Assembly: GCF_000385565.1 (NCBI RefSeq)
Contig: NC_021169.1
Location: 372,001-436,000 of the forward strand
Length of the DNA stretch: 64,000 nucleotides
Direction: 5' to 3'
DNA from: Archaeoglobus sulfaticallidus PM70-1
GTDB lineage: Archaea > Halobacteriota > Archaeoglobi > Archaeoglobales > Archaeoglobaceae
The notes below the pieces were generated by a model. That model saw only the letters and a list, made by a program, of their open reading frames with translations. It was not told where the DNA came from and did not search any database. Positions 44,715-47,374 of this stretch are shown here, in pieces. How positions within the stretch are numbered: position 1 is the first letter of the stretch; the number at the start of each line of letters is the position of its first letter. A program made the translations under genes and the position numbers.

Positions 44715-44786
44715 GGTTACCCCTCTTTTGATTTGAGATAAATAGTAAAATAAAACTATTTAATTTTTTTCAAGCTTCAGACTGTT

Positions 44787-44837
44787 TGTGTTTTCCCGAA
44801 ATTATTTCCACTTTGACAAACCCTGATGTGAGACTTG
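44787..44837 (+). repeat. Diverged copy of a ~50-bp intergenic repeat
   Basis: Aligned by eye, this segment matches 46270-46320 at about 36 of 51 positions, including CACTTTG(A/G)CAAACC. A third version lies at about 47249-47302. The three copies sit in the spacers on either side of the permease gene and beyond the toxin-antitoxin genes. Confidence 0.4.
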
Positions 44838-44934
44838 ACGAAAAAGCCATTGGCTGTATAAATAGAACCAGATCGCAGAATTAGAGTATAACACTGGGAA
44901 AAACTTCTGGTGGAGGGATGCTGTGGTTGCGTAT

Positions 44935-46206
44935 TCATAATCGGCTTGTTTTGCGGTTAGCATACAAATTGAGGTATGTAATTGCAAGTACTGCAACCAG
45001 CACCGGGTAAATCACGCTTTCTCCAACAAATAACAGGGTTGCAAAGCAGATAACGAACGAAATCATCGGATACACTCTCTTCTCAAGCAATATTATGCCA
45101 GCAATCGAGCCAATCAGGTAGAGGGTTATGAAAATGCTGTTGGAGAGCAGGAGCAAAGTTTCGACGGAAATGCTGAACAGATACATGGCAATTAACGTGA
45201 AAACCATGGATGCTGCCACGGCAATCAGAGCATTCTGTGGAGCGTGCTTCCTGTTCAGATTTCCAAAGACCTCTGGCAGATATCCACTTCTCGATAAGGC
45301 ATACAGCAGCCTTGAGGGCGATGCAACATAAACGTTTGCAGAAGCGAAGCAAGTCATAAATCCGATCAACGCAACAAATAGCTTTCCGTTAATGCCAAGG
45401 GATCTGTTCGCTATTTCGACAAGGGAGGTCATTCCCCTCAGGCTGTCACCATATGTATGTGTACCAACAACCACAAAGGAGACGAGCAAATACATTATTC
45501 CAACAACTCCAAGGGCCATCAGAATGCTTAGGGGAAAATCCCTCTCGGGGTTTTTGAACTCCTCTGACAGATGGGTTACAGCCTCCCATCCAACGTAGCA
45601 CCAGAATATCAGTGCCATTGCTCTTCCAATCGGATAGATGTCGAGTTCGAACTTCAGGTTATCTGGATTTACGAGATGAAATGCTGTGAGAACAACAAAA
45701 AGCAGCAGAATAACTATGGAGATCGTTATCATTGTCTGGATATTTCCGGTGAATCTGACACCTCTCAGATTTATGAGGAACATTGTAAGGAGCATGAGTA
45801 TTGCGAGAGCAACAACCCCAGGAAAATCAAGTCCAAGAATGCTGCCCAGATAGGATGCGCCGGTGAGCAGAACAATTGGGGGTCCAATGGGTACGACGGC
45901 CAGAAAGAGAAATCCAGTAATCATTTCTGCATCAAGTGTGATGCTCCCAACAGTCCTTTTTCCAAATGCCTGTTTCGAGAATTCTGAGATTCCACCCGCA
46001 GATGGAAATTTTGAGGCTAGGTAGCCGAAGGTTAGGGCAATTGGCACAGCAAGCAAAGTCATAACTACCCATGCTATTAAGGATGCCGCACCAGCCACAT
46101 TTGCGGCCATGGATGGCAATATCAGGACTCCTGAGCCCAGTATAACTCCTATGAAAATACCGACAGCCTGAAAGAGAGATACTTCCTTTTTAAGCCTTCT
46201 TGTCAT
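44935..46206 (-). CDS. APC family amino-acid permease
   Basis: 423 residues, about twelve membrane helices. The N-terminus LKKEVSLFQAVGIFIGVILG then SGVLILPSMAANVAG is the APC-family first-helix substrate motif; CYVGWEAVTHLSEEFKNPERDFP (about 200-222) is the conserved sixth-helix/loop region. It imports or exchanges amino acids or amines across the cytoplasmic membrane; the substrate is not deducible. Upstream lies sequence that is partly duplicated at 47146-47330, including the first 18 codons of a related gene. Confidence 0.9.
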   Translation of the reverse strand: MTRRLKKEVSLFQAVGIFIGVILGSGVLILPSMAANVAGAASLIAWVVMTLLAVPIALTFGYLASKFPSAGGISEFSKQAFGKRTVGSITLDAEMITGFLFLAVVPIGPPIVLLTGASYLGSILGLDFPGVVALAILMLLTMFLINLRGVRFTGNIQTMITISIVILLLFVVLTAFHLVNPDNLKFELDIYPIGRAMALIFWCYVGWEAVTHLSEEFKNPERDFPLSILMALGVVGIMYLLVSFVVVGTHTYGDSLRGMTSLVEIANRSLGINGKLFVALIGFMTCFASANVYVASPSRLLYALSRSGYLPEVFGNLNRKHAPQNALIAVAASMVFTLIAMYLFSISVETLLLLSNSIFITLYLIGSIAGIILLEKRVYPMISFVICFATLLFVGESVIYPVLVAVLAITYLNLYANRKTSRL

Positions 46207-46350
46207 TATGCCTCACTGTGTCAGTGCCAATTTGATGTGTTAATTAAATTTTTCCAATTATGTGAATGGGTGTGTTCCTTGAGTTATTTTCACTTTGGCA
46301 AACCTCGGTATGATGGTTGTATGGCAAGGGATAAAAGATCGGTCTGTAGG
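46150..46350 (+). repeat. Copy A of a ~190-bp duplicated segment (permease 5' end and spacer)
   Basis: This segment covers the 5' end of the permease gene and its upstream spacer. It recurs at 47146-47330 with diverged identity: a 26-bp exact block (46169-46194 = 47168-47193), TTTGATGTGTTAATT, TTTTTCCAATT, GATGGTTGTATGGCAAG and AGATCGGTC are shared in the same order. Copies are 999 bp apart and enclose the toxin-antitoxin genes. Confidence 0.7.
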
Positions 46351-46411
46351 GAAGAGAAGTAAATGTTTTCTAAGAGTAAGAGAGTATTTGTATAACAAAG
46401 TAGGTGTTTGA

Positions 46412-46849
46412 ATGAGGGTATATATGGACGTTTGCTGCTTTAACAGACCATTTGATGATCAAACTCAAGATAGAATCAGGATTGAATCCGAGGCAGTACT
46501 GGCAATTTTAAACCGATGCATGGATGACTGGATACTTGTAGGGAGTGAAGTAGCAGATTACGAGATATCAAAAATTCCGGATGAAGAAAGGAGGAGGAAA
46601 GTGGAAATTCTTGCATCGATTTCAAAGGAGAAAGTCATCGTTGATGATAATATTGTCAAACGAGCTTTAGAGCTTGAAAAGATTGGATTGAAACCTGTAG
46701 ATGCTCTACACGTGGCATGTGCGGAGAAATCTGCGGATGTTATGCTCACGACAGATGATGAGATAGTGAAAAAAGTTGAGGCTAACAAAGATATTATTAA
46801 AGTTAGGGTTGAAAATCCTGTAAGATGGTTGATGGAGGTGCTGGAATGA
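46412..46849 (+). CDS. PIN-domain toxin (VapC-like ribonuclease)
   Basis: 145 residues of the PIN fold with acidic metal-binding residues Asp6 (MDVCCFNRPFDDQ), Glu46, Asp97 (GLKPVDALHVACAE) and Asp115 (MLTTDDEIVK). The N-terminal DVCCFNRPFDDQTQDR signature belongs to a PIN subgroup commonly paired with a small downstream antitoxin. RNA cleavage is expected from the family. Toxin and antitoxin overlap by 4 nt (ATGA), toxin first, the reverse of most vapBC pairs. The pair lies between two copies of a duplicated segment, suggesting it arrived or moved as a unit. Promoter-like TATTTGTATAAC lies just upstream. Confidence 0.85.
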   Translation: MRVYMDVCCFNRPFDDQTQDRIRIESEAVLAILNRCMDDWILVGSEVADYEISKIPDEERRRKVEILASISKEKVIVDDNIVKRALELEKIGLKPVDALHVACAEKSADVMLTTDDEIVKKVEANKDIIKVRVENPVRWLMEVLE

Positions 46850-47043
46850 ATGAAGCTAAAACCCTTAACGAAATACGCAAAATTGGTATTACTGCTCTTG
46901 CAAAAGCTTTAGGGCCAATTGGAATGGTCAGGTTCATCCAGAGCTTTGATTTGGGTAGTGGAGATTATACCAAAGAGCGTTCGCAGTGGTTAGATCAGAG
47001 TATAGACGAGATTGTAGATGAAATCAAAAGAAGGCGTAAGTGA
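46846..47043 (+). CDS. Putative antitoxin paired with PIN toxin
   Basis: 65 residues from the ATG overlapping the toxin stop. Sequence starts MNEAKTLNEIRKIGITALAK and ends with a basic DEIVDEIKRRRK. The motif ALAKALGPIGMVRFIQSFD plus GDYTKERSQWLD recurs in small genes beside PIN proteins of this subgroup, as far as I recall; it does not resemble RHH, AbrB or Phd antitoxins. Antitoxin function is inferred from gene order and overlap. Confidence 0.7.
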   Translation: MNEAKTLNEIRKIGITALAKALGPIGMVRFIQSFDLGSGDYTKERSQWLDQSIDEIVDEIKRRRK

Positions 47044-47145
47044 ACTATTCCTACTTGCAACTTTACCACTCAACACAAAAATTTAAAAATTAGATCAGTT
47101 AATGCAATAAGTCGGTGATTGGAGTAAAAATACGGTTGTAACAGA

Positions 47146-47199
47146 TCCTATGAAGATGCCGACGGCATGAAAGAGAGATACTTCCTTTTTAAGTCCCAT
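47146..47199 (-). pseudogene. Broken 5' end of a second APC permease gene
   Basis: From an ATG at 47199 the minus strand reads MGLKKEVSLFHAVGIFIG, which matches the start of the intact permease (MTRRLKKEVSLFQAVGIFIG) and then runs into unrelated sequence and a stop. Upstream spacer similarity continues on the other side. The remainder of the gene is gone, apparently replaced by the toxin-antitoxin side. Confidence 0.7.
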
Positions 47200-47330
47200 T
47201 GTGAGTCACCGTGTCAGGTTTGATGTGTTAATTTTTCCAATTGTGAACGGGTGCATTTTCCACAACATTTCAAGTATGGTGAACCTCAGTAGGATGGTTG
47301 TATGGCAAGATCGGTCCGGAAGGAGAGAAA
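47146..47330 (+). repeat. Copy B of the ~190-bp duplicated segment
   Basis: The partner of 46150-46350 in the same orientation. Exact shared blocks include 47168-47193 and TATGGCAAGATCGGTC-type sequence near 47301-47316. It ends about 45 nt before the Obg-type GTPase gene stops. With copy A it bounds 46351-47145, which holds only the toxin-antitoxin genes. Confidence 0.7.
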
Positions 47331-47374
47331 AAAAGAGATTCTCGAGTTTACCTGCCAAGCCAGGTTGAAGCACC

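Follow-up and report, generated by a model that had tools for sequence, protein, structure and literature searches.

We analysed a window of 64,000 nucleotides (C1:372001-436000) from Archaeoglobus sulfaticallidus PM70-1 and searched the whole genome of this heat-loving archaeon, which consists of one contig of 2,076,931 bp. The features described here lie between a DUF655 gene and a gene for a YGR210-like GTPase. On the minus strand, an intact gene (44935-46206) encodes an APC-superfamily amino-acid permease of 423 aa (Pfam PF13520, E 8.9e-43), which is assigned to the L-methionine/branched-chain transporter family (NCBIfam NF008245, 329 bits versus a cut-off of 284). Its codons 1-20 and upstream spacer form repeat copy A (46143-46361, minus strand), which is significant alone to about 46345. 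Two plus-strand genes come next, one for a PIN-domain toxin of 145 aa (46412-46849; Pfam PF01850, E 6e-7, above the gathering score) and one for a 65-aa partner, a putative antitoxin (46846-47043), which overlaps the toxin stop by 4 nt. Repeat copy B (47139-47333, minus strand) consists of upstream spacer and 18 codons of an apparent second-permease relic, truncated after codon 18. Last, between the 3′ end of the permease gene and DUF655 lies feature C (44787-44865, plus strand), the truncated left end of an ISA0963-type (IS481-like) insertion sequence. The DNA between A and B measures approximately 760 bp and is nearly all toxin-antitoxin (TA) pair. No other gene lies between the copies, in agreement with an earlier note on this DNA, which had found only the PIN toxin and its antitoxin there.

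Copies A and B aligned with a gapped local score of 141, compared with a maximum of 27 among 300 Markov shuffles, and matched at 74% over 184 columns in blastn (E 5.2e-26, genome-wide). A third copy of the repeat was not found in the genome by blastn. The ungapped core (46147-46203 and 47146-47202) covers 57 bp at 86% identity with a start spacing of 999. Solid homology extends over approximately 46143-46345 and 47139-47313; a loose alignment carries it on to 46361-46377, but the similarity past 46345 is not significant by itself. In both copies, the repeat spans permease codon 18-20, the start codon and then approximately 140 bp of upstream spacer. The spacer is far richer in indels than the coding part, with 8 gap events, and the spacing of 999 is true of the coding core alone, indels shifting the remainder of the repeat. 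The earlier description of a segment of about 190 bp that occurs twice in the same orientation, 999 bp apart, thus stands for the repeat, whereas the distance fits only the coding core. The repeats have no evident function today.

On the minus strand, copy B encodes MGLKKEVSLFHAVGIFIG and then departs from permease sequence, in keeping with the earlier claim that it breaks off after 18 permease residues; the 18 codons are in frame and include a start codon. Copies A and B share 15 of 16 aligned residues, and three of the four nucleotide differences over these 16 codons are silent. The single amino-acid change, from Q to H, arose on the B side, since Q is found in both permease orthologues that we identified in other genomes (G009 and G020). 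B and the two orthologues have the N-terminus M-x-L-[KR]-K at the same length, and A carries a derived two-codon insertion near its N-terminus. Because B has the N-terminal length of the orthologues and the insertion in A is derived, B was not copied recently from A in its present form. Judged from these residues, B is the relic of a genuine permease gene, and its line split from that of A before the insertion in A arose. Substitution rates in the coding and spacer parts of the A/B alignment did not differ significantly (Fisher p = 1), which gives no support to the idea that copy B was under selection for a time.

Some spacer blocks, CTTGCCATACAACCATC among them, are well preserved between A and B, which would suit a promoter or regulatory motif common to two otherwise unrelated regions. 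However, A and B also have in-frame coding sequence in common, and their spacer is present neither upstream of the orthologues nor elsewhere in the genome. These observations rule out a mere promoter motif, and we give almost no credence to the reading that A and B share nothing else. The earlier note had named, as the case against its own reading, relatives with the same arrangement but no second permease, the similarity then being only a shared promoter motif. Half of this came true, in that relatives lack a tandem permease; the motif half fails on the in-frame coding homology.

Among 394 genomes of the phylum, sampled at one genome per species, a permease orthologue (E below 1e-75) was found in only two further genomes, G009 and G020; the five remaining genomes of the genus lack it. 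Outside Archaeoglobales, one scan of genome contigs returned only 33%-identical Alicyclobacillus proteins. In G009 and G020, the permease gene is single-copy and lies beside a phosphoesterase-like gene, and this TA pair is not adjacent to it. The comparison with relatives that had been proposed earlier thus gave two answers: a tandem APC locus occurs in none of the 57 genomes of the order or the 394 of the phylum, and a stand-alone permease gene does exist in G009 and G020, located elsewhere. Neither an intact tandem state nor a state without the TA pair is preserved in any genome searched.

The proposal that the repeats be dated by alignment could be carried through over the 48 coding bases that can be polarised. 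A and B differ at 4/48 positions, A and the orthologues at 13/48 and 17/48, and the two orthologues from each other at 10/48, which makes the A/B split the younger one. This dating, by 48 bases, places the A/B split after the separation from the G009 and G020 lineages; over the same bases, it probably also postdates the separation of these two orthologue-bearing species from each other.

We then considered the genes enclosed by the repeats. The toxin has the acidic active-site residues of PIN/VapC-like toxins of type II TA systems, D6, D97 and D115, all invariant in 4 homologues; a search of the PIN profile against solved structures gave no match at E 0.001. Its partner matched no Pfam, NCBIfam or PADLOC family and no curated antitoxin family, and the antitoxin and TA labels therefore rest on the conserved gene pairing. 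The closest homologues, at 75% identity for the PIN protein and 73% for the partner, form a toxin-first pair in G006, a genome of another genus, and homologous toxin-first pairs are found on three cyanobacterial plasmids, of Chroococcidiopsis, Nostoc and Planktothrix. From this pairing, the 65-aa partner is likely to be the antitoxin. We predict that the toxin acts as a PIN-type ribonuclease and is held in check by the downstream partner. In G006 (L086:5567-6637), the pair adjoins a gene for an archaeal phage integrase (PF16795). The start of this integrase gene resembles tRNA-gene sequence (GAGFEPAT), which suggests that the region is an integrated element; ARAGORN called no tRNA there. With a 75% homologue near an archaeal phage integrase and relatives on cyanobacterial plasmids, the TA pair is, by its distribution, a mobile PIN module. 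We found no relative of the pair on viral contigs.

A mobile module enclosed by two repeats could have entered by Campbell-type integration: the TA pair would have arrived with a diverged permease 5′ segment and recombined by a single crossover at the resident permease, so that the repeats differed from the outset. This would account for a TA pair lying exactly between the repeats and for a B that did not derive from present-day A, and the phage integrase near the closest TA pair agrees with it. We nevertheless consider it quite unlikely, given that relatives and viral contigs yielded neither a source replicon nor a permease-linked TA pair, and that a crossover is unfavourable at well under 90% identity across <200 bp. 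A broader proposal, that the TA pair and a permease 5′ segment spread as a unit that integrates by homology at permease genes and leaves A/B as scars, is a long shot; if it were true, homology would guide a TA module into a gene already resident in the chromosome.

Feature C offers another candidate for mobility at this locus. It matches an intact 963-bp ISA0963-type copy in G006 at 85.5% and a profile of 19 ISA0963-type ends with E 1.5e-10, starting exactly from model position 1, and it therefore has the left terminus of such an element. ISA0963-type elements are IS481-like and make 15-bp target duplications (PMC10045372); by eye, the intact 963-bp copies in G006 are flanked by target duplications of 14-15 bp. 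Unlike these, C stops after approximately 80 bp and lacks the transposase and the right end, which makes it a truncated remnant.

Within copy A, positions 46270-46304 are identical to C at 28/35 positions (80%) and lie within one base of the register of the IS terminus; in approximately 100 kb of this genome, the score of this 35-nt match is the joint best outside C and one clear IS copy. We considered whether C might be a further copy of the A/B repeat and rejected this, the similarity being limited to 35 nt. On another reading, the repeats are themselves IS ends: C, A and B would be three ISA0963-type ends in one orientation, and the permease and TA genes would be the cargo that they enclose. 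C is a definite end of this type and A has its 28/35 match near the terminus, but the 19-sequence profile detects neither A nor B, the likeness of A to C stops at the 35-nt core with blank flanks, B has no similarity to C, and the repeats run into permease coding sequence. We regard this reading as barely credible, and the link between A 46270-46304 and an IS end is an unproved lead.

The surroundings of the locus differ from those in relatives. There, DUF655 follows rpl21e-rpb4 in a conserved rpl21e-rpb4-DUF655-ksgA cluster, and the YGR210-like GTPase gene closes another conserved cluster and adjoins other genes. (The names rpl21e, rpb4, ksgA and 'HisG-like' were assigned by reading translated sequences and are provisional.) In this genome, the first cluster is split, with rpb4 at C1:534262, approximately 118 kb off, and the gene found next after the GTPase gene in sister species is located at C1:1692481. 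As the neighbourhoods of both DUF655 and the GTPase gene have been split, we conclude that all of 44715-47374 is an insert specific to this lineage, placed at the junction of a rearrangement. The native sequence upstream of DUF655 matches the sister species up to approximately 44777, and the IS end starts ten bases on, at 44787. We infer that recombination between insertion sequences would be a natural cause of the junction. Neither the synteny breakpoint nor the neighbouring insertion-sequence remnant had been remarked in the earlier note.

What the data show is a pair of repeats, a gene relic, a lineage-restricted permease, a breakpoint, an insertion-sequence remnant and a TA pair with a scattered distribution. 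We propose, with a probability of roughly 0.6, that the permease was duplicated and that the acquisition of the TA pair cost the second copy its body, with B as the remaining scar. In the Archaeoglobus sulfaticallidus lineage, a tandem duplication in the same orientation would have taken in the permease gene together with its upstream region. The upstream copy would then have lost all sequence beyond codon 18, and the PIN TA module would have taken the place of the lost permease body, bracketed by the 5′ regions of A and B. These events would have been sited in a rearrangement junction with insertion-sequence debris, where changes of this kind are tolerated. That a whole gene was duplicated, that loss and TA entry coincided, and in which order the steps came is what we infer.

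A blastn self-comparison found no trace between A and B of codons 19 onward of the second permease or of its 3′ flank. This would be expected if the locus had never held a complete second permease and the duplication had taken in just the permease 5′ end and spacer, either together with the TA pair or around it; A-TA could, for instance, have been duplicated in tandem and one of the two TA pairs then lost. The intervening 760 bp, nearly all TA pair, point the same way. Such a history requires an extra loss step, and the kept frame of B, its mainly silent changes and its ancestral N-terminal length mildly favour a former gene, although 16 codons are too few to weigh heavily. We therefore hold a partial duplication to be possible but unlikely. 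The earlier note was right in what it observed and partly right in how it read it. Its central idea, a duplicated permease of which the second copy persists only as a 5′ stub while the TA pair fills the gap, has the best support; its two scenarios, recombination around the pair and insertion of the pair into a duplicate, are indistinguishable from one genome.

In our proposed history of whole-gene duplication followed by TA acquisition, the locus has counterparts among known systems. With an ordinary tandem duplication followed by truncation it shares the direct repeats, the intact gene and the 5′ stub, but the gap here holds an acquired TA pair. In Archaeoglobus fulgidus, PIN-COG2880 pairs form clustered tandem duplicates (PMC2701414). 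Both cases concern PIN TA modules and local duplication in the same order of archaea; in A. fulgidus the TA genes themselves are duplicated, whereas here it is a flanking permease segment, and the partner protein has no DUF104/COG2880 match. The locus is an ordinary product of genome plasticity that keeps a clear record of duplication, decay and gene insertion, and it leaves general views unchanged. It would provide a small, well-polarised case of a TA module that came to stand alone in a chromosome, inserted at the junction of a rearrangement in place of a redundant duplicate. For annotators, it indicates that a 5′ gene stub beside a TA pair can be a scar and not a promoter element.

In classical vapBC operons the antitoxin gene comes first, whereas here the toxin gene does. 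Toxin-first PIN pairs with unnamed partners have been described in Synechocystis (slr1383-ssr2317 and sll1543-ssl2999; PMC4963859), and the present pair, likened to them by description, likewise consists of a PIN gene and then a small partner of no named family. The 65-aa partner family has the motif GDYTKER...WLD and is paired with PIN genes in archaea and on cyanobacterial plasmids. Remnants of this family occur in two sister species (L088:1306-1533 and L089:1201-1347), where the cognate PIN toxin is missing; they lie directly downstream of a different PIN-like gene, which is itself preceded by a small partner gene.
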